The translations under genes were made by a program, and so were the position numbers. This document shows, one piece after another, positions 23,977 through 39,270 of a stretch of DNA of 64,000 nt (positions are counted from its first letter, which is position 1; every line of letters begins with the position of its first letter). This DNA comes from Agromyces sp. ISL-38 (GTDB lineage: Bacteria > Actinomycetota > Actinomycetes > Actinomycetales > Microbacteriaceae): positions 1-64,000 of the forward strand of contig NZ_JAGGPF010000001.1 of the NCBI RefSeq assembly GCF_018613935.1, given 5' to 3'. The notes beneath the pieces are model-generated. The model worked only from the letters and a program-made list of their open reading frames with translations. It searched no databases and had not been told where the DNA came from.

Positions 23977-24987
23977 GTGCGAATCACGGTGCTGGCTGGC
24001 GGAGTCGGAGGGTCGCGCTTCGTGCGCGGCGTGCGCGAAGAGTGCGCGCGGCGGTGGCCCGACGGAAACGGCGGCACGACGGCATCCGTCACCGTGATCG
24101 TCAACACGGGCGACGACCTGTGGCTCGCGGGTGTTCGTCTCTCGCCCGACTTCGACTCGCTGCTCTACTCGCTCGCCGGCGTGAACGACACCGAGCGCGG
24201 CTGGGGCCGCGCAGGTGAGAGCGAGCGGGTCGCCGCCGAGTTGCGCGAGTGGGGCGTCGGCTGGCCGTGGTTCACCCTCGGCGACCTCGACCTCGGCACG
24301 CACCTCGCCCGCACCTCGTGGCTGCGCGAGGGCGCGACCCCCTCAGAGGTCGCGGCCCGGTTGCAGTCGCGGTGGCCGCTCGGAGTCCGGCTCATTCCCG
24401 CGACCGACACCGAGGTCGACACCGACGTCGATGTCGCCGACGCCGACGTGCCCGGCGGTGAGCGCACGATGCACTTCCAGGAGTGGTGGACGAGATATCG
24501 CGCCGCCCTCCCCGCGATCGCGTTCCGGCAACGGAACATCGAGCGGGCACTGCCCGCTCCCGGCGTCGTCGAGGAGATCCTCGGCGCCGACGTCGTGCTC
24601 GTCGCGCCGTCGAACCCCGTCGTCTCGATCGGCACGATCCTCGCCGTTCCCGGCATGCGCGAAGCCCTCGCCGAGACCTCCGCGCCCGTCGTCGGGATCT
24701 CGCCGATCATCGGCGGCAAGGTCGTGCGCGGCATGGCCGACGCCTGCCTCAGCGCCATCGGCGTGGCGACGAGCGCCGAAGCCGTGGCGCGTCACTACGG
24801 CGCACGTGCGAGCGGCGGCCTGCTCGACGCCTGGCTCGTCGACGAAGCGGATGCCGCAGCGGTGGCCTCGCTCGAGGCATCCGGCCTGCACGCGGCATCC
24901 GTCCCCCTCTGGATGCACGACCTCGACACCTCGGCCGCCCTCGCCGGCGCGGCCCTCGACGTGGGGACGTCGCTGCGCGCGCACTGA
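23977..24987 (+). CDS. cofD: 2-phospho-L-lactate transferase (F420 biosynthesis, CofD/FbiA)
   Basis: CofD/FbiA joins FO to the phosphoenolpyruvyl or lactyl-phosphate moiety of the GPP-activated intermediate to make (dehydro-)F420-0. The 336-residue protein shows the N-terminal nucleotide loop ITVLAGGVGGSRFVRG, VTVIVNTGDDLWLAGV, YSLAGVNDTERGWG and WFTLGDLDLGTHLART, all CofD hallmarks, and VLVAPSNPVVSIGTIL near residue 210. The start is a GTG with a -10 box six bases upstream (leaderless). cofC and cofE lie 12-15 kb away and the F420-0 importer genes begin 775 bases downstream. Confidence 0.95.
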   Translation: MRITVLAGGVGGSRFVRGVREECARRWPDGNGGTTASVTVIVNTGDDLWLAGVRLSPDFDSLLYSLAGVNDTERGWGRAGESERVAAELREWGVGWPWFTLGDLDLGTHLARTSWLREGATPSEVAARLQSRWPLGVRLIPATDTEVDTDVDVADADVPGGERTMHFQEWWTRYRAALPAIAFRQRNIERALPAPGVVEEILGADVVLVAPSNPVVSIGTILAVPGMREALAETSAPVVGISPIIGGKVVRGMADACLSAIGVATSAEAVARHYGARASGGLLDAWLVDEADAAAVASLEASGLHAASVPLWMHDLDTSAALAGAALDVGTSLRAH

Positions 24988-25761: not shown

Positions 25762-26808
25762 ATGCCCGAAATCCCGTCGCTCGCGCGGTCCAGCGCGAAC
25801 GCATCCCCCCGTCGCGCCCGCACGGCGCTGCTCGCCATTCCCGCGCTGGCACTCCTGCTCGCGGGCTGCGCGGCCGCCGGCACCGCGACGCCGAAGAGCG
25901 ACGACGCCTCCGCCGGGGGTGGCGACGCGGCATCCGGCTACCCGCTCACGCTCGACAACTGCGGCACCGAGGTGACCTTCGAGTCCGCACCCGAGCGCGT
26001 CGTGACGATCAAGTCGTCGACGCTCGAGCTGCTCCTCGCCCTCGGACTCGAGGACCGCATCGTCGGCACGGCCTTCACTGACGGCCCCGTGCCCGACGAG
26101 TACGCCGACGCGGCATCCGGCCTGGAGACGCTCTCCGACAAGGTGCCCTCGCAAGAGGTGACGCTCGCGGCCGAGCCCGACCTCGTCTTCGCCGGATGGG
26201 AGTCGAACCTCACCGCCGAGGGTGCGGGCGACCGTGACGCCCTGGCCGGCCTCGGCGTCGCGACCTACGTGGCGCCCGCCGCCTGCAAGGGCGAGGGCTA
26301 CATGCCGAACCCGCTGACGTTCGACGAGGTCTTCCGCGAGTTCGAGGAGGCGGGTGCGATCTTCGGAGCGACGGATGCCGCAGCCGAGCTCGTCGCGTCG
26401 CAGCAGGCCGCCCTCGACGCGATCGAGCCCAGCACGGCCGGCCTCACCGCCCTCTGGTACAGCTCGGGCGACGACACCCCGTACGTCGGCGCCGGCATCG
26501 GCGCGCCGCAGATGATCATGGCCGCCGCCGGACTCGAGAACATCGCGGCTGACGTCGAGGACACGTGGACCTCGATGGGCTGGGAGGCCATCGTCGAGGC
26601 GAACCCCGACGTCATCGTGCTCGTGGATGCCGCCTGGAACACCGCGGATCAGAAGATCGCCCATCTCGAGTCGAACCCGGCGACGGCCGCACTCCCCGCG
26701 GTGCAGCAGCGGCGGTACCTCATCGTCGACTTCCCCGCGACCGAGGCCGGCGTGCGGAACGTCGGCGCGGTGGCCTCGCTTGTCGAGCAGCTCGAGGAGC
26801 TCGGGTAG
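25762..26808 (+). CDS. Substrate-binding lipoprotein of the proposed F420-0 ABC importer
   Basis: The 348-residue protein has a signal peptide with lipobox LLAGC (about residue 38), then a cobalamin/siderophore-type (class III) binding domain: PERVVTIKSSTLELLLALGL, DLVFAGWESNLT, and a C-terminal VRNVGAVASLVEQLEEL. Adjacent permease and ATPase genes form a three-gene cassette. I recall comparative genomics proposing this actinobacterial cassette as an importer of F420-0, based on its co-occurrence with cofE and F420 enzymes. The setting here, between cofD and fgd-cofC-cofE, supports that. Start ATG with GGAGG five bases upstream. Confidence 0.88.
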   Translation: MPEIPSLARSSANASPRRARTALLAIPALALLLAGCAAAGTATPKSDDASAGGGDAASGYPLTLDNCGTEVTFESAPERVVTIKSSTLELLLALGLEDRIVGTAFTDGPVPDEYADAASGLETLSDKVPSQEVTLAAEPDLVFAGWESNLTAEGAGDRDALAGLGVATYVAPAACKGEGYMPNPLTFDEVFREFEEAGAIFGATDAAAELVASQQAALDAIEPSTAGLTALWYSSGDDTPYVGAGIGAPQMIMAAAGLENIAADVEDTWTSMGWEAIVEANPDVIVLVDAAWNTADQKIAHLESNPATAALPAVQQRRYLIVDFPATEAGVRNVGAVASLVEQLEELG

Positions 26809-26810
26809 CG

Positions 26811-27983
26811 ATGCCGCTCCCTCCCCACCCCGACGCCGACGAACGCGTCACTTCGCGACAACCAGGCGACGAATCCGCCCCGGTTCGGCGCAATGTGACG
26901 CGTCCGACGAGCGACGCGGACATTGGGAGGCAGGAGAGGCAGGAGAAGTGGATTGCACGCGGGCGCGCGGGAGACGGCGGCGTGCGCACAGGTGCGTGGG
27001 CCGTCGGGCTCGCGGTGCTGCTCGCGGCATCCGTCGTCACCGCCGTCGCGATCGGACCGGCGGGCCTCAGCCCCGTCGACGTGTGGTCGAGCGTGCTCGC
27101 GCACCTCGGCATCGGCGAGCCCACCCTCAGCCCGCTGCGCGACGGCATCGTGTGGCAGCTCCGGATGCCGCGAGTGCTCACCGCCGCGGCGGTCGGTGCA
27201 GGGCTCGCGCTCTGCGGTGCCGTCATGCAGGCCCTCACCCGCAACCCGCTCGCCGACCCCTACCTACTCGGCCTCTCGTCGGGCGCGTCGGTCGGTGCCG
27301 TCATCGTGATCGTGCTCGGCGCGGGCCTCCTGCTGCCGTTCGCGGCGTTCGCCGGCGCGCTCGTCGCCCTCGTCGCGACCCTCGCCCTCGCGAACGCGGC
27401 CGGCTCGCTGAGCCCCACGCGCACGGTACTCGCCGGCCTCGCCGTCTCCGCAGTCTTCAGCGCCATCACGAGCCTCGTCATCTTCTGGAGCGCGACGGGC
27501 GACAGCTACCGCGAGATCCTCAACTGGCTGCTCGGGTCGCTCGCCGGCACCGACTGGACCTCGGTCGCCATCGCAGGCGGCGCGGTCATCGTCATCGGCG
27601 TGCCGCTGCTCACGAGTGCAAGCACGCTCGACGCCTTCGCCTTCGGCGACACGGCCGCGGCGGCGCTCGGCGTGCACGTCGGCCGCACCCGCGCCCTGCT
27701 CCTCACCGGCACGGCCCTCCTCACGGGCGCGCTCGTCGCGGTGAGCGGGTCGATCGGCTTCGTCGGGCTCGTGCTGCCGCACGCCGTGCGCCTCATCGTC
27801 GGCTCACGCCACCGCGCGCTGCTGCCGCTGTCGGCGCTCGCCGGCGCGATCTTCCTCGTGTGGGCCGACACCGGCGCGCGCACCCTCTTCGACCCGCGCG
27901 AGCTGCCCGTCGGCATCCTCACCGCCCTCATCGGCGGCCCCGTGTTCGCGACCATCATGCTGCGCAACCGGAGGCTCACGTGA
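26811..27983 (+). CDS. Permease of the proposed F420-0 ABC importer
   Basis: The 390-residue BtuC/FecCD-family permease has about ten membrane spans. Landmarks are LRMPRVLTAAAVGAGLALCG, MQALTRNPLADPYLLGLSSG (the coupling helix) and FVGLVLPHAVRLIVGSRHRALLPL. A charged N-terminal tail of about 60 residues precedes the first span, longer than in typical FecCD proteins. The gene begins two bases after the binding-protein stop and ends in a GTGA overlap with the ATPase. Confidence 0.9.
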   Translation: MPLPPHPDADERVTSRQPGDESAPVRRNVTRPTSDADIGRQERQEKWIARGRAGDGGVRTGAWAVGLAVLLAASVVTAVAIGPAGLSPVDVWSSVLAHLGIGEPTLSPLRDGIVWQLRMPRVLTAAAVGAGLALCGAVMQALTRNPLADPYLLGLSSGASVGAVIVIVLGAGLLLPFAAFAGALVALVATLALANAAGSLSPTRTVLAGLAVSAVFSAITSLVIFWSATGDSYREILNWLLGSLAGTDWTSVAIAGGAVIVIGVPLLTSASTLDAFAFGDTAAAALGVHVGRTRALLLTGTALLTGALVAVSGSIGFVGLVLPHAVRLIVGSRHRALLPLSALAGAIFLVWADTGARTLFDPRELPVGILTALIGGPVFATIMLRNRRLT

Positions 27984-28813
27984 GCGGGACCCTCCACACC
28001 GACCGCGTGCGTTTCTCCCGCGGACGCGCCCTCATCATCGACGACGTCGACTGCACGGTGCCGGCCGGCACGGTGGGTGCGCTCCTCGGCCCGAACGGCG
28101 CCGGCAAGAGCACCCTGCTCCACCTCATCGCGGGCATCGAGCGAGCGGATGCCGGAACCGCACACTTCGGCAACCGCGATCTCGCCGCGATGCGTCGCCG
28201 CGAACGAGCACGGGTCATCGCCCTCGCCGAGCAGGACGTGCAGGATGCCCCGGGGCTGCGCGTCGCGGAGGTCGTGGCGCTCGGTCGCACCCCGTACCTC
28301 GGGGCGTTCGCCGGACCGGGCGAGCTCGACCGCGCAGTCGTGCGCCGCTGCATCGAGGACGCCGGGCTCGTCGAGCTCGCCGATCGGGAGTACGCGTCGC
28401 TCTCGGGCGGCGAGCGCCAGCGCGTGAACATCGCACGTGCCCTGGCGCAGGAGCCCGAGCTGCTGCTGCTCGACGAGCCGACGAACCACCTCGACGTGCG
28501 TGCGCAGCTCACGATGCTGCGACTGCTCCGCGAGCTCGCTCACGGTGGGCTCACGGTGCTCGCCGCGCTGCACGACCTCTCCCTCGCCGCGGGCTACGCC
28601 GACCACGTGATCGTGCTCGCGATCGGCCGCGTGGTCGCCGCCGGCGAGCCGCGCACGGTGCTCACGCCCGAACTCATTCGCGCCGTGTGGGGCGTCGAGG
28701 CCGTGGTGCTCGCGCATCCGGTGAGCGGGCGGCCGCTCATCGCCTACTCGGATGCCGCCGGCGAGCGGATGCCGCACACACGACCCGTCCCGGCGGGCCG
28801 ACCTGAGGCGTAG
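27980..28813 (+). CDS. ATP-binding protein of the proposed F420-0 ABC importer
   Basis: The 277-residue ATPase of the FecE/BtuD class has Walker A LLGPNGAGKSTLL, Q-loop ALAEQDVQD, signature YASLSGGERQRVNIARAL, Walker B ELLLLDEPTNHLD and switch His in ALHDLSLA. GTG start overlapping the permease stop. The three genes form a complete class III importer; the coenzyme precursor is inferred from neighbourhood and family knowledge, as the sequence itself would also allow a siderophore or cobalamin ligand. Confidence 0.9.
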   Translation: MSGTLHTDRVRFSRGRALIIDDVDCTVPAGTVGALLGPNGAGKSTLLHLIAGIERADAGTAHFGNRDLAAMRRRERARVIALAEQDVQDAPGLRVAEVVALGRTPYLGAFAGPGELDRAVVRRCIEDAGLVELADREYASLSGGERQRVNIARALAQEPELLLLDEPTNHLDVRAQLTMLRLLRELAHGGLTVLAALHDLSLAAGYADHVIVLAIGRVVAAGEPRTVLTPELIRAVWGVEAVVLAHPVSGRPLIAYSDAAGERMPHTRPVPAGRPEA

Positions 28814-28823
28814 CCTTGAGCGC

Positions 28824-29297
28824 GTGAACGTGCTGAGCGAGGTGAGGCGAGAACTGCTCGACTCGATGGCACGGGAGTTCCTGCACAACTCGCCACGCGG
28901 CCGGCGACTCCTCGCCGTCGAGGGCGAGACCGATGCCCTGGCCGCCCGTTTCGCCGACGACCTGGCCGCCACGCTCGTCGACCTCGGGCAGCCCGCGGTG
29001 CGGGTGTCACTCGGCGATGTCGACGAGGCGACGCTGCGCGCGGCCACCGTCGAGCCCTTCCGCGCCGGCACGCTGACCGCCGCAACAGACCCCGACACCG
29101 TGCTCGTCGTCGAGGGGCGCAGGCTGCTGAACCTGTCGGTCCGCGGCATCTGGCACTTCTCCGTGTGGGTACTCGCCGGCGAGGAGCTGCCGCACGCGTT
29201 CGTGAACGTGATCGTCGACGCAACCGACGAGGCAGCGCCGAAGCGATACTTCTACGACCTCTGCAAGCTGCCGCCGAGCGTGGGCGAGCGCCGCTGA
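28824..29297 (+). CDS. Uridine-kinase-like protein with a degenerate P-loop
   Basis: The 157-residue protein aligns by eye to the nucleoside-kinase type P-loop fold (LLAVEGETDALAARFADDLAATL, VRVSLGDVDEATLRA, VLVVEGRRLLN, FVNVIVDATDEAAPKRYFYD). Where a GxxxxGK(S/T) loop should be it reads EGETDALAA, so ATP binding is probably lost. GTG start with TAGCCT seven bases upstream (leaderless), 10 bases after the importer ATPase. Role unknown; a binding or regulatory function is more likely than kinase activity. Confidence 0.75.
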   Translation: MNVLSEVRRELLDSMAREFLHNSPRGRRLLAVEGETDALAARFADDLAATLVDLGQPAVRVSLGDVDEATLRAATVEPFRAGTLTAATDPDTVLVVEGRRLLNLSVRGIWHFSVWVLAGEELPHAFVNVIVDATDEAAPKRYFYDLCKLPPSVGERR

Positions 29298-29310
29298 GTC
29301 GCGGCTTCCG

Positions 29311-30183
29311 TCACGACAGCACGTCCTTCGTGAGGAACCGGCTGACGGCGAGCGCCCCGAACACCACGAGGTAACCGGCCTGCAACACCGCGTTGTCGGC
29401 GAACGAGTCCCACACGACCGGCTCGCGCATGAGATCGCCGAAGCCGAGCCAGTAGTGCGTGAAGAGCCACGGATGCAGCCACTCGAGCTGCGGGAGCGCG
29501 TCCATGATCTGCGACACGACCGCGAGGATCGCCGTCGCGGCCATAGCCCCGACCGGCACCGTCGTGAGCGTCGAGAGGAAGAGCCCGATCGCCGACATGC
29601 CGAGGAGCGAGACGGTCACGTACGCGGCGATCGCGAGCAAGCGCAGGAGCGCGTCGCCGATGCCCACCGTCGCCCCCGAGAGGAGCGTGACCGGCCCGAT
29701 CGGGAACAGCGCCCAGCCGATGAGCGTGCCGACCACCACGACGGTGAGCGGCGCGGCCACGCAGAACACGGCGGCGGCGAGGTACTTCACGAGGAGCAGC
29801 CGGATGCGACCCGCCGGCGCGATCAGCAGGTAGCGGAGGGTGCCGTGGCTCGCCTCACCGGCGATCGCGTCGCCTGCCACCACGCCGATGGTGAGCGGCA
29901 GGAAGAGCGGGATGGCGACGAGGATCGCGGTGACGCCGACGAAGAACCCGTTGTTCGTGATCTGGTCGAGGAACGCCGGCCCGCGCCCGGTCGGCGGCCC
30001 GCCCGAGAGGCGGACCGCCACGGCGATGAGGATCGGGATGAGCGCGAGCGCGCCGAGGAGCGCCCACGTGCGCCGGCGGCGGAAGAGGGTGAGCAGCTCG
30101 GAGCCGAGAAGGGAGAGCGTGCCGCCGCCGCCGCCGCGCGCGTCGAGCACCAGAGGCCCGTCGTGCACCTCACGCGACGACAT
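29311..30183 (-). CDS. ABC-2-type exporter permease
   Basis: The 290-residue protein has a short cytosolic tail and about six spans in ABC-2 arrangement: TWALLGALALIPILIAVAV, FVGVTAILVAIPLFLPLTIG, then AGEASHGTLRYLLIAPAGR, a typical ABC-2 loop. It overlaps the preceding ATPase gene by 14 bases, forming an exporter or membrane-remodelling ABC pair. The substrate is unknown; DrrB/NatB-like systems are related. Confidence 0.88.
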   Translation of the reverse strand: MSSREVHDGPLVLDARGGGGGTLSLLGSELLTLFRRRRTWALLGALALIPILIAVAVRLSGGPPTGRGPAFLDQITNNGFFVGVTAILVAIPLFLPLTIGVVAGDAIAGEASHGTLRYLLIAPAGRIRLLLVKYLAAAVFCVAAPLTVVVVGTLIGWALFPIGPVTLLSGATVGIGDALLRLLAIAAYVTVSLLGMSAIGLFLSTLTTVPVGAMAATAILAVVSQIMDALPQLEWLHPWLFTHYWLGFGDLMREPVVWDSFADNAVLQAGYLVVFGALAVSRFLTKDVLS

Positions 30184-31234
30184 CGAATCCCTCGCCGGTG
30201 AGGTCGACGAAGCGCTGCTCGAGGCTCGCCCGCTCGATCTCGAATCCGCGCACCCGCACGCCGGCATTCACAAGTGCGGTGACGATCGACTCGGGCGCTG
30301 CAGTCGCCGAGCCGCCATCCGCCGAGCCGCCATCCGCCGAGCCGTGATCGGTAGAGCTGCCATCCGCCGAGGTGCCATCCGCCGAATGGCGCTCGATCTC
30401 GCCGCCGAGCCGGGCCGTGACGAGCTCGTCGTCCGAGGCATCCGTCGCCGATCGGATGCCGCCCACCGTCGTCTGCTCGATCGGCAGGCCGAGCGCCGCG
30501 AGCACGGCACGAGCCCGGCCCGGGTCGGGCGTTCGCACGAGCACCCTGGAGCCGCGGCCGCGGAGCTCGTCGATCGTGCCGTGCGCGACGAGGCGCCCCA
30601 CGCTCATCACGGCGGCGTGCGTGCAGACCTGCTCGACCTCGGCGAGGAGGTGGCTCGACACGAACACCGTCGTGCCGCCCTCGGCGAGCGATCGGATGAG
30701 CGAGCGCACCTCGCGCGTGCCCTGCGGATCGAGCCCGTTCGTGGGCTCGTCGAGCACGAGGAGCTCCCGGCGCATCAGCAGGGCGTTCGCGAGCCCGAGC
30801 CGCTGCTTCATGCCGAGCGAGTAGGCGCCCACCTTCTTCTTCGCGGCGTGCGAGAGCCCGACGCGCTCGAGGGCCAGGGCGACGCGGTCCGACCGGGTGC
30901 CGCGCGGCGCGTGCCGGTCGGCGGCGTCGAAGCGGCGCAGGTTCGCCTCACCCGAGAGGTACGGCGAGAAGGCCGGCCCCTCCACGAGCGCGCCGACGCG
31001 CGGCAGCACCGAGTCGACGTGGTGCGGCATGTCGGCACCGAGCACGCGGGCGTCGCCGGCGGTCGCCGCGACGAGGCCGAGCAGCATCCGGATCGTCGTG
31101 GTCTTTCCCGAGCCGTTCGGACCGAGGAATCCGAAGACCGAGCCCTCGGGCACGGCGAGGTCGAGCCCGTCGACGGCGACCTGCGAGCGGAAACGCTTGG
31201 TCAGGCCGTGTGTCTCGATCGCGAGGTCGGGCAC
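30170..31234 (-). CDS. ABC-2 exporter ATP-binding protein with a repeat insertion
   Basis: The 354-residue DrrA/NatA-like ATPase has Walker A FLGPNGSGKTTTIRMLLGL, signature YSLGMKQRLGLANALL, Walker B LLVLDEPTNGLDPQG and switch His in FVSSHLLAEVEQ. After the usual C-terminal DrrA-like region begins, a 25-residue insert SADGT-SADGS-STDHG-SADGG-SADGG interrupts the domain before the final IVTALVNAGVRVRGFEIE part. GTG start at 31234, 11 bases after the stop of the LolA-like gene: probably one transcript from 32487. Confidence 0.9.
   Translation of the reverse strand: MPDLAIETHGLTKRFRSQVAVDGLDLAVPEGSVFGFLGPNGSGKTTTIRMLLGLVAATAGDARVLGADMPHHVDSVLPRVGALVEGPAFSPYLSGEANLRRFDAADRHAPRGTRSDRVALALERVGLSHAAKKKVGAYSLGMKQRLGLANALLMRRELLVLDEPTNGLDPQGTREVRSLIRSLAEGGTTVFVSSHLLAEVEQVCTHAAVMSVGRLVAHGTIDELRGRGSRVLVRTPDPGRARAVLAALGLPIEQTTVGGIRSATDASDDELVTARLGGEIERHSADGTSADGSSTDHGSADGGSADGGSATAAPESIVTALVNAGVRVRGFEIERASLEQRFVDLTGEGFDVVA
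30311..30385. repeat. Five 15-bp coding repeats in the exporter ATPase
   Basis: Five consecutive 15-base units of GCCGCCATCCGCCGA type (30311, 30326, 30341, 30356, 30371) encode five-residue Ser-Ala/Thr-Asp units on the minus strand. The exact period of five codons points to replication-slippage expansion within a linker. Confidence 0.85.
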
Positions 31235-31245
31235 TGCGGCTGCCG

Positions 31246-32487
31246 TCAGCGCCCGGTTGCGGCGGCGTCGAGCAGGCGATCGGCGGTCACCGCGCCGGCG
31301 AGCACGCGGCCGTCGTCGGTGATGAGCACGGTGACGAGCGAGGTGGAGAGGATGCGTCCGCCGTCGACGCGCTCGGTGAGCGAGCCGAGCATCGCGGCCG
31401 CCTCGCCGTCGAAGCCGGCCGCGCCGACCGCCGCAGCGGGCAGCTCGACGACGGCCGACCAGCCATCGCCGTGCACCACGGGCCGCGGCGTCTCGCCGCC
31501 GGACTCCGCCTCCGCCTGGGCCTTTCGCTGCTCGAGCTCTGCGGCGGTCGGGATCGGCACGACGTGCTCGCTCACCTCGGTGCCCTCGGGCGGGGTGAAC
31601 GCGAAGACCGACGCATCGGGCGCTTCGAAGGAGACGTCGGTGAACTCGACGCTGAACGCCGGCTCGTCGGCGCCGCGAGCGGTGACGGATGCCGCGAGCG
31701 CGACGCCCGTGTCGCCGTCGATCGCCACGGTGATCTCGCCGATGAGCGTCTCGGCATCGCGCGGTTCGAGCACGAGCTCGTAGACCTCGCGGCCGGCGAC
31801 CCGCCCATCGGTGCCGACGGAGACGTCGGTCGTCTGATCGAGCTTCGCGAGCGCCTCGTCGAGCACCTGCTCGGGCGTCGGCAGCGGTGCGCCGAGCTCG
31901 GCCTCGAGCTGCTCACGTGCCTCGTCGGCGTGCGCCTGCGCCTCGGCTTCGAGCGCGTCGAGGGCGGCTTGGTCGACGGTGAGGTGGGTCGCCGCCTTCT
32001 CGGCGGAGTCGTAGATCCACGCGCCCTCCTCGGAGAGGTACACGTTGCGCTCGGCGAGCCGATCGAGCACCTGCAGGCGCGCGTTCGAGCCGTCGAGGTA
32101 GACCTTGGCCGTGTGGGTTCCGGTCGCGAGCGAGATGAGGTCGTCGAGATCGGTGGCGGATGCCGCGGCGTCGCCACCGCCACCGTCACCGTCACCCTGG
32201 CCGAGATCTCCACTGCCGCCGGTGCTGCCGCCGCCCATCGTGCCGGTGAGTCCGGACAGGTCGGGGATGCCGAGCTCGGAGCGCTGCTCGATCGTGCCCG
32301 AGAGTGCCTCGACCTCGCTCGACGCGGCGAACTCGAGGAGCTCGGCGGGCGTGAGATCGGGGAGGTCGACGGCCGCATTCGCCTGCATCGGCACGAGCAC
32401 GACGCCGACGCCGATCGCGATCGGCGCGGCGATCGCGGGGATCCAGCGGATGAGCCTTCGGGAGGCCCCGGTGTCGCGGGCGCGCAT
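31246..32487 (-). CDS. Secreted LolA-like / DUF2092-type protein
   Basis: The 413-residue protein has an N-terminal membrane anchor or signal (RLIRWIPAIAAPIAIGVGVVLV, cleavage near ANA-AVDL). A LolA-like beta-domain follows: LLEFAASSEVEALSGTIEQ, HTAKVYLDGSNARLQVLD, GAWIYDSAEKAATHL, GREVYELVLEPRD. A Gly/Asp linker interrupts it near residue 85. In Gram-positive bacteria such proteins are usually encoded with ABC-2 exporters, as here, and may carry a lipid or lipoprotein. TAGCCT lies six bases before the ATG (leaderless). Confidence 0.85.
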   Translation of the reverse strand: MRARDTGASRRLIRWIPAIAAPIAIGVGVVLVPMQANAAVDLPDLTPAELLEFAASSEVEALSGTIEQRSELGIPDLSGLTGTMGGGSTGGSGDLGQGDGDGGGGDAAASATDLDDLISLATGTHTAKVYLDGSNARLQVLDRLAERNVYLSEEGAWIYDSAEKAATHLTVDQAALDALEAEAQAHADEAREQLEAELGAPLPTPEQVLDEALAKLDQTTDVSVGTDGRVAGREVYELVLEPRDAETLIGEITVAIDGDTGVALAASVTARGADEPAFSVEFTDVSFEAPDASVFAFTPPEGTEVSEHVVPIPTAAELEQRKAQAEAESGGETPRPVVHGDGWSAVVELPAAAVGAAGFDGEAAAMLGSLTERVDGGRILSTSLVTVLITDDGRVLAGAVTADRLLDAAATGR

Positions 32488-32493
32488 GAGTTC

Positions 32494-32499
32494 AGGCTA
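32494..32499 (-). promoter_or_regulatory. -10 box of a leaderless LolA-like transcript
   Basis: On the minus strand TAGCCT is followed by GAACTC and the ATG at 32487. This is probably the promoter of the three-gene exporter operon. Confidence 0.55.
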
Positions 32500-32617
32500 C
32501 GCCTGCCCGTGGCATCCGGGACCTGGTCAGTGGGAACACTCAGGATCACCGCCGCCGCCGCTTGCCGGCGCCGGGCGGGGACGGCGCGCACCCCGAATTG
32601 GGGAGAGTCAGGCCTGT

Positions 32618-33211
32618 CTAGGGCGCGAGTGAAGGCGACGTGAGGAGGATCACCACTCCCGCAAGCAGGGTGATGACGTGGAAGAAGAACGGGGGCATGT
32701 CCCGGAGGACGATCGTCACGACGATCAGCAGCGCCGTGCCGACGATCACGACCCACCCGAGCCAGTCCGGATACGGGCTGAACACGAGCGCGACGCCGAA
32801 GATCGCCAGGCCGATCTCGGTCAGCGCGGCGTAGAGCAGGAAGAGCCAGGCGGGCAGCCTCCCCTCGGCGAACGCGGCCGGATTCGCAGCACGTGCGTAC
32901 AGGTGTCCGAGCCACGGAACCAGGCCGAGCGTCAGGAGCGCCGTGCTGGTCAGCATGAGCCAGGCGAATGACCCGTCGCGATCGTCGGGGGCGAGGAGGC
33001 CGATCCCGATGACCGTGACGAGCGATCCGACACCGAACAGGACCTGCGACGCGATCCAGGCCCTCGGCGAATCGGTGATGCGCTCCAGCTTCTTCGCCGG
33101 GGAAGCCTCGGGAAACACCCGGGCGGAGATGGGCATGAAGGCTGCGACGAGGAAGAGCACCGAGCCCAGGATCATCACGGCGCCGCTCACCTGGTTCAGA
33201 CCGACATTCAT
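32618..33211 (-). CDS. Multi-pass membrane protein of unknown function
   Basis: The 197-residue protein has about six spans: MILGSVLFLVAAFMPIS, VLFGVGSLVTVIGIGLL, LMLTSTALLTLGLVPWL, and a C-terminal IVGTALLIVVTIVLRDMPP followed by ITLLAGVVILLTS. No catalytic motif is seen. The start is probably the ATG at 33211 behind GGGGGC; a second ATG at 33223 would add four residues. Divergent from the gamma-glutamyltranspeptidase gene. I do not recognise the family. Confidence 0.75.
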   Translation of the reverse strand: MNVGLNQVSGAVMILGSVLFLVAAFMPISARVFPEASPAKKLERITDSPRAWIASQVLFGVGSLVTVIGIGLLAPDDRDGSFAWLMLTSTALLTLGLVPWLGHLYARAANPAAFAEGRLPAWLFLLYAALTEIGLAIFGVALVFSPYPDWLGWVVIVGTALLIVVTIVLRDMPPFFFHVITLLAGVVILLTSPSLAP

Positions 33212-33302
33212 CGCAGCCCCCATGACCAACCATTGCCCCCGCCCGCCGCCCGGGTCTAGCGTGAGGCACCAAATGGTCTGTACCCAGTTCGGGGGGAATC
33301 CT

Positions 33303-35171
33303 ATGGTCAGCTTCGTCGCCCACGACCGCTCAACGCTCCGTCGCCTGGCACTCGGTCTCGCCGCCGCACTCGCGGCCGGAGCCGTCGCCACGGCCGCGCC
33401 TGCGTCCGCACAGTCGCTCGCTGCTCCGCCGGCCGCCGCCTCGACCGGTCGCCCGACGCCGCCGGCGCCGTCCACCTCGACCGGGTACGGGGGTGCCGTC
33501 TCGTCGGTGGACGCCTCGGCCAGTGCGATCGGCATCGACGTGCTCCGCGACGGTGGCACTGCGGCGGATGCCGCGGTGGCCACTGCGGCTGCGCTCGGCG
33601 TGACCGAGCCCTACAGCGCCGGGATCGGCGGCGGCGGATACTTCGTGTACTTCGACGCGGCGACCGGCACGGTGAGCACGATCGACGGGCGCGAGACGGC
33701 GCCGGCGGCCATGCCGAGCGATGCCTTCATCGACCCCGCAACCGGCAAGCCCTACCGATTCACGCCCGAGCTCGTGTCATCCGGTGTCTCGGTCGGCGTT
33801 CCCGGCACCCTCGCCACGTGGGACGCCGCACTCGACCGCTTCGGCACGAAGCCGCTCTCGGCCGTGCTCACCCCCTCGATCCAGCTCGCGGCGAAGGGGT
33901 TCACGGTCGACCAGACCTTCCGCAACCAGACCCTCGACAACAAGGCGCGATTCGCGGCGTTCCCCGACACCGCGAAGCTGTTCCTCCCTGGCGGCGATGC
34001 ACCGCAGGTCGGCTCGAGGTTCAAGAACCCCGACCTCGCGCAAACGCTCGCACTCATCGCCGCGCAAGGCCCCGACGCGTTCTACTCGGGCCGGCTCGCA
34101 TCGGAGATCGCCGAGGTCGTGCAGCATCCGCGCAAGGATCCCGCCTCGGCGCTGCCCGCGCCGCCCGGCACGCTCACCACCGACGACCTCGCGGCGTACT
34201 CGGTGCTGGAGCAGGAGCCGACGCACGTGGAGTACCGGGGCCTCGACGTCTACGGCATGGCGCCGTCGTCGTCGGGCGGCACGACGGTCGGCGAGGCGCT
34301 CAACATCCTCGAGAACCACGAGCTCTCCTCCGACGATGCCGGCGCGAGCCTGCACCTCTACCTCGAGGCGTCGGCTCGGGCCTTCGCAGACCGCGCCGCG
34401 TACGTCGGCGACCCGGCGTTCGTCGAGGTTCCGACCGAGACCCTGCTCAGCCAGGAGTTCGCCGACGCCCGGGACTGCACGATCGACCCGACGACGGCAT
34501 CGACGCGGCCGGTGCCCGCCGGAGCCCTCGACTCCGTGGGCTGCGCAGCCGCCGCCCTCGAGGAGCAGCTCGACACCGAGAACGTCTCGACCACCCACCT
34601 CTCGGTCGTCGACAAGTGGGGCAATGCCGTCGCCTACACGCTCACGATCGAGCAGACCGGCGGTTCGGGCATGACGGTGCCCGGACGCGGCTTCCTGCTG
34701 AACAACGAGCTGACCGACTTCAGCACCGTGTTCAACCCCTCCGACCCGAACCGCATCGAGCCCGGGAAGCGGCCGCGGTCGTCGATGTCGCCCACGATCG
34801 TGCTCGACGACGGGGCGGTGCGGTTCGTGGTCGGCTCACCGGGTGGGTCGACGATCATCACCACCGTGCTGCAGATCCTCATGAATCGCATCGACCTCGG
34901 CATGACGCTTCCCGAGGCGGTCGCGGCCCCGCGTGCCGCGCAGCGGAACACCGTGGCGACGACGGCCGAGCCCGAGTTCATCGCCGCCTACCAGGACGCG
35001 CTCACGCCGTACGGGCAAGTGCTCGTGCCATCGGGGGACCAGTTCACCTCGGCCGCGCAGATCGGGGCCGCCGCCGCGATCGAGGTCGACCAGAGCGGCC
35101 TCATGACCGCCGCGGCCGAACCGGTGCGCCGTGGCGGGGGCACGGGTCTGGTCGTCGAGCCTGCTGGCTGA
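33303..35171 (+). CDS. ggt: Secreted gamma-glutamyltranspeptidase
   Basis: The 622-residue precursor has a signal peptide (LALGLAAALAAGAVATAAPA). It has the Ntn-hydrolase architecture of GGT, which self-cleaves before Thr430 (VSTTHLSVVDKWGNAVAYTL); that threonine becomes the nucleophile of the small subunit. Family motifs SSGGTTVGEALNILE, SSMSPTIVLDDG and GSPGGSTIITTV are present. GGT hydrolyses or transfers gamma-glutamyl groups, usually from glutathione or poly-gamma-glutamate. Actinobacteria mainly use mycothiol, and coenzyme F420 carries a gamma-glutamyl tail, so its place between the F420-0 importer and fgd-cofC-cofE is suggestive. Start: ATG after GGGGGGAATCCT. Confidence 0.94.
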   Translation: MVSFVAHDRSTLRRLALGLAAALAAGAVATAAPASAQSLAAPPAAASTGRPTPPAPSTSTGYGGAVSSVDASASAIGIDVLRDGGTAADAAVATAAALGVTEPYSAGIGGGGYFVYFDAATGTVSTIDGRETAPAAMPSDAFIDPATGKPYRFTPELVSSGVSVGVPGTLATWDAALDRFGTKPLSAVLTPSIQLAAKGFTVDQTFRNQTLDNKARFAAFPDTAKLFLPGGDAPQVGSRFKNPDLAQTLALIAAQGPDAFYSGRLASEIAEVVQHPRKDPASALPAPPGTLTTDDLAAYSVLEQEPTHVEYRGLDVYGMAPSSSGGTTVGEALNILENHELSSDDAGASLHLYLEASARAFADRAAYVGDPAFVEVPTETLLSQEFADARDCTIDPTTASTRPVPAGALDSVGCAAAALEEQLDTENVSTTHLSVVDKWGNAVAYTLTIEQTGGSGMTVPGRGFLLNNELTDFSTVFNPSDPNRIEPGKRPRSSMSPTIVLDDGAVRFVVGSPGGSTIITTVLQILMNRIDLGMTLPEAVAAPRAAQRNTVATTAEPEFIAAYQDALTPYGQVLVPSGDQFTSAAQIGAAAAIEVDQSGLMTAAAEPVRRGGGTGLVVEPAG

Positions 35172-35330
35172 CCGATCGAGGCAGCGCCCCTACAACCACC
35201 GACGGCGCTTGAACGTCACGTAGACGATCACGTCGATGATCACGATCGCGGCGCCGACCACGATCCGGCCATGCCTGATGGTACGCCCACCGGTCTCGCG
35301 AGCGTCGGGAATGAGCCGTCGACGCCGCCG

Positions 35331-36353
35331 TCAGGCGTCGAGCGCCCGCAGGCGCGGCGCGAGATCGCGCTCGAACAGCTCGAGGAAGCGGCGCTGGTCG
35401 TGGCCGGGCGCGTGGAACACGAGGTGATTGAACCCGGCGTCGACGTACTTCTTGACGTCGGCGACGACCTGATCGGGGTCGCTGCCGACGATCCAGCGCT
35501 TCGCGATCTCCTCGATCGGCAGCGCGTCGGCCGCCCGCTCCATCTCGACGGGGTCGGTGATGTCGTGCTTCTGCTCCTTCGAGAGCGAGAGCGGCGACCA
35601 GAAGCGGGTGTTCTCGAGCGCGGCCTCCTCGGTCTCCTCGTACGAGAGCTTGATCTCGATCATGCGGTCGATCGCGTCGTACGAGCGGCCCGCGGCATCC
35701 GCCCCCTCCTTGACGGCCGGGATGAGCTGCTCGGTGTAGAGCTCCATGCCCTTGCCCGAGGTGCAGATGAACCCGTCGCCCGCGCGGCCCGCGTACTTCG
35801 CGACGACCGGCCCGCCCGCCGCGATGTAGACCGGAACGCCCCCCGCGGGGCGATCGTAGATCGACGCGTCGTGCGTCGAGTAGTACTCGCCCTCGAAGTT
35901 CACGCGATCCGCGGTCCAGAGCTCGCGCATGAGCCGGATCGACTCGCGCAGCCGCCCGAAGCGCTCCTTGAACTCGGGCCAGTCCTGCGCGCCCGCTCCG
36001 CGGAACCCCGTCGCGATCTCGTTGAGCGCCTCGCCCGTGCCGACACCGAGGATGATGCGGTCGGGGTAGAGGCAGCCGAGCGACGCGAACGCCTGCGCGA
36101 GCACGGCCGGGTTGTAACGGAACGTCGGCGTCATCACCGAGGTCCCGATGCGGATGTTCGAGGTGCGCTCGCCCACCGCGGCGATCCACGTGAGCGAGAA
36201 CGGCGCATGCCCGCCCTCGTGCCGCCACGGCTGGAAGTGGTCGCTCGTGAACACCGACTCCATGCCGTGCCCCTCGGCCGCGACCGCGATCTCGACGAGC
36301 TCCCGGGGGGCGAATTGCTCGGCCGAGGCCTTGTATCCGAGTGTGAGCGTCAT
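35331..36353 (-). CDS. fgd: F420-dependent glucose-6-phosphate dehydrogenase
   Basis: FGD oxidises glucose 6-phosphate to 6-phosphogluconolactone and reduces F420 to F420H2, the main source of F420H2 in actinobacteria. The 340-residue TIM barrel resembles mycobacterial FGD1 closely throughout: [71 protein letters not shown]. Active-site residues equivalent to FGD1 Glu13, His40, Trp44 and Glu109 are Glu12, His39, Trp43 and Glu108. A small insertion (RGAGAQD) follows the last. Start ATG overlaps the cofC stop (ATGA). Confidence 0.95.
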
Positions 36354-37024
36354 AGTGTTCCCTTTCGGTCGGCGAGGCGCGCGACGGCTTCGGCGGTGTG
36401 GTCGCCCACTCCATGGTGCAGCACGGCCTCGAGTCCGTCGACGGTGTCGACGTCCCGGCTGAGACCGGGGACGGCGGATGCCTCGAGCTCGACGAACCCG
36501 GCCGCCGCGTGCTGTGCCGCCGAACCGGGCCCGAATCGCGGCTCGAACGGCACGCCCGGTGCGGCGGTCGCGAGCGTCGTGCCCGTGCCGTCGGCGTCGC
36601 GCACGAAGGCGAGCGGATGCCGCGCCGCAGCCTCGAGCGCCGCGTCGAGCTCATCGGGGTGCAGCCCCGGCAGGTCGCCGAGCAGCACGGCGACGGCGCT
36701 CGGCCCCGCGGCCCGCGCGTGCGCGATGCCGTGTCGGATCGCCGGCAGCAGGCCGCGCTCGTCGCCGGCCGGCTCGGCGAGGAACTCCGCTCCGTCGGCG
36801 AGGGAGGCGTCGTCGCCCACGACGATCACCCGTTCGACCGAAGCGGCCGCGAGGGCGGCGGCGATCGTGTCGAGCGCGAACGCCCGGGCGAGCAGCGTGC
36901 GAGCGTCGTCGGCGAGCGCCGGCGAGAGCCGCGTCTTGCCGACCGCGGGCGCCTTCACGGGGATCACGACGGTCCAGCGAGCGATGGCGGAGTGCCGGTG
37001 TTCCGGCGGAGGCACCGCGTTCAT
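36350..37024 (-). CDS. cofC: 2-phospho-L-lactate / phosphoenolpyruvate guanylyltransferase (CofC/FbiD)
   Basis: This enzyme activates 2-phospho-L-lactate or phosphoenolpyruvate with GTP for CofD. The 224-residue MobA-like nucleotidyltransferase has [19 protein letters not shown] at about residues 17-35, [31 protein letters not shown] with the metal Asp, and [24 protein letters not shown]. Overlap with fgd (ATGA) makes the two co-translated, tying cofactor synthesis to its main reductase. An N-terminal extension of about 15 residues before the barrel is not informative. Confidence 0.93.
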
Positions 37025-37085
37025 GCCCTCCTCCGCAACACGGTCACTCCAACCGGGTCGAGGGCACGCATCAGCGGCAACGAGC

Positions 37086-38084
37086 TCATGCGCGGAGCGC
37101 CGGCAGCACGTCGCGGCCGAAGACCTCGAGGAACTCGGCCTGGTTGCGGCCGACGTTGTGCAGGTAGATGCGGTCGAAGCCGAGGTCGAGGTGCCGCTGG
37201 ATGTCGGCGCGATGCACGTCGGGATCGGCCGAGACCACCATGCGGCCTTCGAAGTCCTCTGCCCGCACCATGCGGGCGAGCTGCTCGAACTCGAACGGCG
37301 ATCGGATGTCGCTGCGCGCGAAGCGCATGCCGCCGTTCGGCCATTCCACGAGGGCGTTGCGCATCGCCTCCTCGTCGGTCGCGGCCCACGAGAGGTGCAG
37401 TTGCAGCACCTTCGGCATCTTCGAGGGATCGCGCCCCGCCTCGCGAGCGCCCTCGCCGAAGCGGGTGAGGAGCGCAGCGAGCCGATCGGCGGGTGCACCC
37501 GTGGTGATGAGCCCGTCGACGTTGCGTCCGGCTCGGCGGGCGGTCACGGGTCCGGATGCCGCGACGAAGATCTGGGGCGCGACCGCGGGCATCGTCCAGA
37601 GCCGCGTGGACTCGAGCTTGAAGTACTGGCCCGAATGGCGCACGTCACGGCCGGCGAGCGAGCCCGCGAAGAGCTTCTTGATCACGTCGACAGCCTCGAA
37701 CATGCGGTTGATGCGCTCGTGAGCCTCGGGCCAGTAATTGCCGACGACGTGCTCGTTGAGGGCCTCGCCCGAGCCGATGCCAAGCCAGTGCCGGCCCGGG
37801 TAGAGCGCGCCGAGCGTCGCGCTCGCTTGCGCCACCATGGCCGGATGCCACCGGAACGTCGGCGTCGTCACGCCCGGGCCGAGGTCGCCCGCGGTGCGCT
37901 CGCCCATCGCGGCGAGCACGCTCCACACGAACGACGACTGCCCCTGCGCCGGAAGCCACGGCTGGAAATGATCGCTGGCCATGACGCCCGTGAAGCCGTG
38001 CGACTCGGCGAGCGCGGCGAGCGCCACCGCTTCGGCGGGCGGAAACCGTTCGAGCATCGCGGCGTAGCCGATGTGCACTGGCAT
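37086..38084 (-). CDS. FGD-like F420-dependent oxidoreductase (LLM family)
   Basis: The 332-residue protein is an FGD paralogue: GYAAMLERFPPAEAVALAAL, ASDHFQPWLPAQGQSSFVW, GIGSGEALNEHVVG, FVAASGPVTARRAGRNVDGL. Residues matching FGD1 Glu13, His40, Trp44 and Glu109 are conserved (Glu12, His39, Trp43, Glu107), so F420 binding is expected. The phosphate-binding part differs from the neighbouring fgd, and the substrate is probably not glucose 6-phosphate. It lies 61 bases before cofC and likely shares its transcript. Start ATG with GGAGG upstream. Confidence 0.9.
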   Translation of the reverse strand: MPVHIGYAAMLERFPPAEAVALAALAESHGFTGVMASDHFQPWLPAQGQSSFVWSVLAAMGERTAGDLGPGVTTPTFRWHPAMVAQASATLGALYPGRHWLGIGSGEALNEHVVGNYWPEAHERINRMFEAVDVIKKLFAGSLAGRDVRHSGQYFKLESTRLWTMPAVAPQIFVAASGPVTARRAGRNVDGLITTGAPADRLAALLTRFGEGAREAGRDPSKMPKVLQLHLSWAATDEEAMRNALVEWPNGGMRFARSDIRSPFEFEQLARMVRAEDFEGRMVVSADPDVHRADIQRHLDLGFDRIYLHNVGRNQAEFLEVFGRDVLPALRA

Positions 38085-38163
38085 CCCCCTATCCTCCCGC
38101 GTTCGCGGCGAACCCGCTCGCCTCCTCCGCGGAATGCGCGACCGCACTCGCTGCGCCTTCCGA

Positions 38164-38227
38164 AGGACATTCGCAGGTTGGGAGGACGTCTGCGAACGCA
38201 AGCGTCCTACGAATCGGCGAATGTCCT
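38164..38227. other. Nested inverted repeat in the cofE-downstream spacer
   Basis: AGGACATTCGC (38164-38174) and GCGAATGTCCT (38217-38227) are perfectly inverted, enclosing a second inverted pair AGGACG/CGTCCT (about 38183-38207). The 180-base spacer 38085-38264 between cofE and the FGD-like gene otherwise holds no gene. It could be a terminator, mRNA processing site or operator. Confidence 0.55.
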
Positions 38228-38264
38228 CCCAAAGCCGATGCACGTGAGCGCATTCCGGCAGGGA

Positions 38265-39047
38265 TCATGCCGAATCGAGCGGCCCCTCGGCCTGCGACTC
38301 GTCGAAGCCGTCGCGATACCCCTCGTTGTACGCCTCATCGGCGCCGATGCGGAACAGGTCGCGGTCGGCGGGGCGCTGGATGCTTCGCGCACCCGGCAGG
38401 TCGAGGTCGCCGACGAACCGGCCGAGTCCGCGCACCACCGCGACCGGCACCCCCGAGCTCTTGCCCTTCACGAGCTCGGCGGCGCCGGCGAGCTCGTCGG
38501 CGACGCACGGCATCGTGACGGCGAGCGGCTTGCCCGCGGCATCCGTCGACCCGCGAAGGTCTTCGAAGACGTGCACGCCCGCGGCGCCGATCGCGATATC
38601 GGTCTGCCCCTCGCGCCATGGCCGGCCCAGGGTGTCGGAGAGGATGACACCGACGGCCGCACCGGTGAGCGCACGGATGCCGGTGGCGAGCGCGCGCGCC
38701 GAGGCATCGGGGTCGACCGGAAGCAGCAGCACCGTGCCGTCTGGGGCGTTGGACGCATCGACGCCCGCTGCCGCACCGATGATGCCCTGGCGGTTCTCGA
38801 CGATGCGGGTGATGCCACCGTCGAAGACGCGCGTCGCGACGACCCGCACGGTCTCGTCGGTGATCGCCTGCTCGCGATCGACGGCCTGCACGAAGCGCCC
38901 TTCCGCCTTCGAGACGATCTTCGACGTGATGACGAGGATGTCGCCGTCGGCGAGGTCGACCGCGTCGACGATGAGCGCGGCGAGGTCGTGCCCGCGCACG
39001 ATCTCGGGGAGCCCCTCGACGCCTTCGATGCTGAACTTCACGGCCAC
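38265..39047 (-). CDS. cofE: Coenzyme F420-0:L-glutamate ligase (CofE)
   Basis: CofE adds gamma-linked glutamates to F420-0 using GTP. The protein of about 260 residues has [79 protein letters not shown] and [24 protein letters not shown], the conserved CofE core. The C-terminal nitroreductase-like domain that makes mycobacterial FbiB bifunctional is missing; a dehydro-F420 reductase must be encoded elsewhere if it is needed. Start is a GTG at 39047 or 39041; no ribosome site separates them. First gene of the cofE - FGD-like - cofC - fgd series. Confidence 0.93.
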
Positions 39048-39270
39048 CCCCAGCTCGTCGATACTCCTCGATCTTGGCAGCATCCGTGCGCCCCTGCCAG
39101 AATGCGGTTGCGGGCCTGCCGGAATGCGGGATTCCGGTCGCCGAAGCCCGCGGCGAGGGAGGCCTGGAGCGCGAGCCTGCCTGTCGCTGCCTCGATCCGG
39201 CCGCCGCCCCATCGGATGGCGACCGCGCAAGGGCTTGAACCCGCCTCCCTCCTCGTGGCTACGATCGAGC

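Follow-up and report, generated by a model that had tools for sequence, protein, structure and literature searches.

A putative salvage locus for the deazaflavin FO in Agromyces sp. ISL-38

F420 is commonly regarded as a cofactor made by each of its users, with CofD joining the deazaflavin FO to the linker. An ATP-binding cassette (ABC) transporter for the intermediate F420-0 is said to have been proposed by Selengut and Haft in 2010, and its name reportedly rests on five genomes, four of them with cofE alone. Our subject is a locus with a transporter of this family in Agromyces sp. ISL-38, on the first 64,000 nucleotides of contig NZ_JAGGPF010000001.1 (assembly GCF_018613935.1), a stretch that we call the window. 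The portion of a FEMS review of F420 available to us names no importer of F420 or FO, only a supposed exporter (PMC8498797). Among the papers searched, none contains the phrase F420-0 transporter, F420-0 ABC transporter, F420 transporter, FO transporter, F420 importer or F420 auxotroph, and the search showed no title on carrier-mediated FO uptake; we cannot say that an earlier proposal of FO as cargo was never made.

We think that the locus probably encodes an FO salvage route, a reading built on sequence comparison throughout. The substrate-binding protein (SBP), permease and ATPase of the importer would bring in FO leaked by producers. Going by their families, CofC and CofD would turn FO into F420-0 by attaching the linker, CofE would add gamma-glutamates and Fgd would reduce the cofactor, while a gamma-glutamyltranspeptidase (GGT) encoded among these genes would stand outside the route. 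In relatives from which cofC and cofD have gone as well, this importer seems to have been retuned to F420-0, which is anionic, and its SBP carries Ser291 and a basic letter at 298; these letters are associated with the loss, and the cargo is our reading of them. FO does occur outside cells, according to the available parts of two papers that report it in the culture fluid of an FbiC overproducer (PMC3012119) and in the supernatant of Mycetohabitans (PMC11104420).

Importer genes and FO synthase

All three importer subunits match the families TIGR03868, TIGR03869 and TIGR03873; the SBP and permease pass the cut-offs, and the ATPase has its best match there, 14 bits under. The initial annotation of this DNA had named the importer, fgd, cofC, cofE and the GGT, and profile matches place each of them in the window. 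Its description of a class III importer of the F420-0 transporter family holds for the family; the proteins are of the FecCD/BtuC kind (Pfam FecCD, 302 bits), usually called type II. The genes are tightly packed, with the permease starting 2 bases past the SBP stop and a GTGA overlap joining the permease stop to the ATPase start. The SBP is 94 per cent identical to that of Agromyces albus, the nearest named locus, and its structure model has a mean pLDDT of 86. Import of iron or B12 was considered and rejected, as the three families above are the best matches and no Rfam match reached the gathering score in the window.

Just upstream of the importer, and outside the segment covered by the initial annotation (25762-39047), lies cofD, which that annotation did not mention. 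With it, cofC, cofD and cofE are all present in the window, and what is absent is the first committed step, that of FO synthase: cofG and cofH had no match in this genome, whose assembly is 92.9 per cent complete. Because neither was found, the earlier view of the locus as one of salvage is very probably right, and the deazaflavin core would have to come from outside.

Importer and FO synthase were compared across a family set of 150 genomes, 137 of them at least 90 per cent complete and at most 5 per cent contaminated, and an order set of 396. The importer occurs in forty-nine genomes of the family (46 over the SBP cut-off, plus G119 at 328 bits and G049 and G022 with the gene in two pieces each), cofH in 32, cofD in 67, cofC in 68 and a strong cofE match in 84, including all 49 importer genomes and all 32 with cofH; cofE was sought in the family set only. 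None of the 49 importer genomes has an FO synthase, against 32 of the 101 others (Fisher P = 7e-7), and among the 84 cofE genomes the exclusion gives P = 4e-20, both values uncorrected for relatedness. CofH was called at E 1e-30, and the curated cut-off was passed by only 9/32 family and 32/62 order matches; weaker matches were judged by frame length and, for some, by closeness to cofD.

Exclusion is incomplete in the order, where 105 SBP matches at E 1e-85 and G049 make 106 importer genomes. FO synthase is present in five of these against 57 of the 290 others, with about 17 joint occurrences expected (P = 1.4e-4, relatedness uncorrected); several of the weak cofH matches are short frames in two importer-less genera, and if these are other radical SAM proteins, as they may be, the comparison group is inflated by them. 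Two genera of the family each hold one importer species and one FO-synthase species (G021/G101 and G037/G111).

The cargo of the importer

Both cofC and cofD are kept in thirty-three of the forty-nine family importer genomes, and sixteen have cofE alone. In the order set we tested the first 80, by handle, of 97 importer genomes not tested earlier (17 were left out), and cofD was present in 41 and absent in 39, so that 74 of the 129 importer genomes tested carry it. The gene is under purifying selection: the ratio of nonsynonymous to synonymous substitution rates (dN/dS) is 0.105 between the window and A. albus, a pair compared for cofD only, and 0.13 (G102/G025), 0.10 (G141/G078) and 0.27 (G063/G129) in pairs of family genomes without cofH. 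For cofC, dN/dS is at most 0.44 over 17 pairs; cofH was not sought in the named genomes.

Among 78 named loci with an ATPase match (some species counted twice, and one match, L076, weak), twenty-three have a cofD frame whose start overlaps the ATPase stop (ATGA or GTGA): fifteen from Cellulomonas, three from Leifsonia, two from Cryobacterium and one each from Cellulosimicrobium, Gulosibacter and Microterricola. The overlapping cofD has normal length in 20/23 and an N-terminal extension in 3/23. Elsewhere it is adjacent (two loci), upstream (fourteen, all Agromyces), on the other strand (five) or farther downstream (three); it is outside the flank in thirty and cut by an edge in one. By this arrangement, cofD is the importer's fourth gene and operon partner in other genera.

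These observations bear on the cargo. Import of F420-0 would leave cofC and cofD idle, yet cofD is under purifying selection, which favours FO; and since CofD consumes FO, FO is the likeliest cargo. For the window, where cofC and cofD are kept and in whose relatives cofD is the importer's operon partner, we would therefore replace the F420-0 of the initial annotation with FO.

The SBP itself offers a second line of evidence. On a tree of 48 of the 49 family SBPs (G022, with its gene split between contigs, was left out), the cofC/cofD state changes at least seven times, five of these forced by well-supported branches. A scan of alignment columns found that Ser291 and Lys298 track the cofE-only genomes (phi = 0.81, a value that none of 300 simulated traits reached). 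The rule 'Ser291 or Lys298', set in advance, was then applied to 80 further SBPs from the order, and these letters stood in 36/39 cofD-minus but also in 10/41 cofD-plus genomes (P = 2.5e-10, relatedness uncorrected). Taking all 128 SBPs together, Lys or His stands at position 298 in 44/54 cofD-minus versus 3/74 cofD-plus genomes, the His part having been added after the data were seen, and the best column reaches 0.79 versus a largest value of 0.74 in 300 simulated traits. According to the available part of the F420 review, the linker and tail of F420 add negative charge and FO is uncharged (PMC8498797); a basic residue 298 would therefore suit F420-0. This pattern suggests FO and F420-0 cargo classes of the importer. 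The window SBP has Ala291 and Gln298 and is predicted, from these letters and the gene content, to be of the FO type. In one genus (L153, L162, L192 and L220, which are G162, G209, G334 and G427), cofD lies far from the importer and the SBP has Ser291 and Tyr298, contrary to the rule.

We regard it as unlikely, though the strongest of the alternatives, that the importer carries F420-0 in all species, that CofC and CofD use FO diffusing in without a carrier and that the cluster is an F420 regulon only. The NCBIfam family name says as much, cofD is absent from the sixteen family and thirty-nine order importer genomes given above, and unaided diffusion of FO is on record. Under this account, however, the imported molecule would have no need of CofC and CofD. 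Yet 23/78 loci show translational coupling of cofD to the importer, and the SBP letters differ between cofD-plus and cofD-minus genomes. Quite improbable, in our view, is a single broad importer that takes FO and F420-0 alike, with cofC and cofD lost by neutral drift: the repeated changes between cofC/cofD-plus and cofE-only states, with orthologous importers throughout, would fit it, but the letters at 291 and 298 change repeatedly with the loss.

Several points count against FO as the cargo. FO is said to cross membranes unaided in the part of the review available to us (PMC8498797), so that a carrier for it may not be needed. The importer of cofE-only genomes cannot be bringing FO alone. 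Ten of the 41 cofD-plus genomes carry the cofD-minus letters and three of the 39 cofD-minus genomes the reverse; the Fisher P values ignore relatedness, and independent contrasts across well-supported branches (eight pairs, 5.2 to 0 for the rule) give a median P of only 0.06. The Agromyces loci do not have cofD joined to the importer operon: it is upstream in 14/31 and not in the flank in 15/31. Importer and FO synthase occur together in G493, of the window's genus, and in G342, G425, G443 and G471, and three family genomes (G016, G027 and G053) carry cofC, cofD and cofE with neither FO synthase nor importer. The last three may have a passive or other source of FO; a second kind of importer was looked for among ten proteins near these genes in G053 and G016, and no transporter was found there. 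In G493, the importer and FO synthase are about 0.4 Mb or 2.8 Mb apart, depending on direction, on a 3.2 Mb contig, and a regain of FO synthesis is possible there.

The gamma-glutamyltranspeptidase

The initial annotation had the GGT trim F420-n to F420-0 outside the cell, whereupon the importer would take up F420-0 and CofE re-elongate it. The enzyme itself is largely as described. It is the only GGT (TIGR00066, T03) found in the genome, and alignment to PDB entries 4y23 and 2e0w bears out an intact catalytic Thr430 (numbered from the Met at 33303; 432 if the frame is read from 33297). Secretion was judged by eye, without a predictor, from an N-terminus that looks like a signal peptide.

The distribution of GGT does not follow the importer. 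It occurs in 63 of the 150 family genomes, 22/49 with the importer and 41/101 without (P = 0.72). It is commoner in cofE genomes than in others (45/84 versus 18/66, P = 0.0015), as trimming would have it, but the excess sits with FO-synthase genomes (22/32) over importer genomes (22/49, P = 0.04), which is the wrong way round for that role. Eighteen family genomes have a GGT and no importer, FO synthase or strong cofE match, and two of the window's genus (G079 and G142) have the importer and no GGT.

Among the twenty-two family genomes with both GGT and importer, the two lie within 20 kb on one contig only in the window's; they are at least 83 kb apart in ten and on different contigs in eleven, three of which are short-contig assemblies that cannot tell. 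By chance, about 0.13 GGTs would be expected within 10 kb of the importer across the other 21 genomes; the observed count, even out to 20 kb along the same contig, is zero. As a single case, this closeness is not beyond chance. In named genomes, a GGT is near the importer in 19/80 loci, all among the thirty-one from Agromyces and tail to tail with fgd, and in 0/49 loci from other genera, some of which were ended by contig edges. The enrichment of GGT near F420 genes expected in relatives was thus not found outside Agromyces. Within it, GGT stands beside fgd in 19 of the 27 loci on the tree, the window included, and the placement is conserved in this genus; at least five changes in its presence occur while the importer and fgd stay. 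We read this as one probable insertion into a stable Agromyces neighbourhood, followed by several losses.

Chemistry points the same way. Every glutamate alpha-amine in F420-n is acylated, as in folate polyglutamates, and a gamma-glutamyl hydrolase or carboxypeptidase would therefore be expected in place of a GGT. In the Bacillus subtilis GGT, E423, E442 and D445 hold the alpha-amino group of the donor, according to the available part of one study (PMC8062742). All three letters are present in the window GGT (the glutamates of TIEQ and NNEL and the aspartate of LTDF, by alignment to 4y23 and 2e0w), so that its pocket is that for a free alpha-amino group, absent from F420-n. On co-occurrence, linkage confined to one genus, pattern of change and this pocket, we dropped the GGT as a salvage component. 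Trimming of F420-n is very improbable despite the placement beside fgd, and the GGT is most likely a bystander; scavenging of gamma-glutamyl peptides would be a guess at its role.

Least credible of all is that an FO synthase was missed in the assembly and the importer merely tops up supply: the completeness of 92.9 per cent leaves room for it and G493 pairs importer with cofH, but the order sample holds ten other genomes from this genus, 99-100 per cent complete, and nine of them lack cofH, as do all forty-nine family importer genomes.

The locus and known systems

From left to right, the locus holds cofD, the three importer genes, an ABC exporter pair on the reverse strand, two proteins that match no Pfam family and the GGT, to the right of which fgd, cofC, a luciferase-like monooxygenase (LLM) class oxidoreductase and cofE follow on the minus strand (Table 1).

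Table 1. Features of the locus, in window coordinates, with the matches on which each assignment rests.
Feature	Position	Strand	Support and remarks
cofD (FO + activated phospho-organic acid to (dehydro-)F420-0)	23977..24987	+	TIGR01819, 313 bits (cut-off 257); 310 bits to solved FbiA 6uvx
Importer SBP, FO type by our reading	25762..26808	+	TIGR03868, 491 bits (cut-off 392)
SBP residue 291 codon	26629..26631	+	Ala in the window, Ser in most cofD-minus genomes; numbering from 25759
SBP residue 298 codon	26650..26652	+	Gln in the window, Lys/His in most cofD-minus genomes; numbering from 25759
Importer permease	26811..27983	+	TIGR03869, 507 bits (cut-off 437); start picked by eye
Importer ATPase	27980..28813	+	TIGR03873, 359 bits, slightly below cut-off 372
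ABC exporter pair (ABC2 membrane protein and ATPase)	29311-31234	-	Pfam
Two predicted proteins between exporter and GGT, one secreted-looking	31246-33583	-	No Pfam match
GGT, secreted-looking, judged outside the salvage route	33303..35171	+	TIGR00066, 437 bits
fgd, F420-dependent glucose-6-phosphate dehydrogenase	35331..36353	-	TIGR03554, 638 bits (cut-off 420)
cofC	36350..37051	-	TIGR03552, 143 bits (cut-off 105); frame as scanned, start not fixed
LLM-class oxidoreductase, Fgd-like	37086..38093	-	TIGR03557, 285 bits (cut-off 210)
cofE, single-domain F420-0:gamma-glutamyl ligase	38265..39053	-	TIGR01916, 236 bits (cut-off 181); start not fixed

The exporter pair is kept between the importer and fgd in 20/80 named loci (sixteen Agromyces, three Leifsonia and one Microterricola), a wider range than that of the GGT. 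The Fgd-like oxidoreductase stands beside cofE in many importer loci, from several genera.

Import of FO, if it takes place, would make many Micrococcales dependent on their neighbours. About half of the members of the transporter family (those with cofD, as counted above) would then bear a wrong public name, and counts of F420 makers based on cofC, cofD or cofE would come out too high. We hold a broader picture more tentatively, as a conjecture a little less likely than not: FO may be a traded vitamin of actinobacteria, with many importer-bearing Micrococcales being deazaflavin auxotrophs. Their importer family may repeatedly have moved between two classes, one for FO (Ala291, neutral or acidic 298) and one for F420-0 (Ser291, basic 298), and two SBP letters may reveal which intermediate is taken from neighbours. 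With one solved relative and two named residues, the cargo claim is directly testable in vitro.

Of the systems described so far, the nearest is the putative F420-0 ABC transporter (TIGR03868/TIGR03869/TIGR03873, a 'hypoth_equivalog'), which the window importer resembles in its family matches and in the cofE and fgd alongside it. That family is named after F420-0, whereas the window and two-thirds of the family importer genomes (33/49) keep cofC and cofD, so FO appears to fit better. The closest solved relative of the SBP, the periplasmic binding protein of Jonesia denitrificans (PDB 4mlz; 329 bits, 52 per cent identity, root-mean-square deviation 1.4), differs in having Ser at 291 and Lys at 298, the cofD-minus letters. 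The window cofD resembles the phosphoenolpyruvate transferase FbiA/CofD (PDB 6uvx) over nearly its full length, but FbiA's usual partner FbiC is absent from the genome. Finally, the GGT matches the Bacillus-type gamma-glutamyltranspeptidase (PDB 4y23) at 325 bits, keeps its nucleophile Thr and donor-pocket letters, and differs from that type only in its location beside F420 genes in Agromyces.

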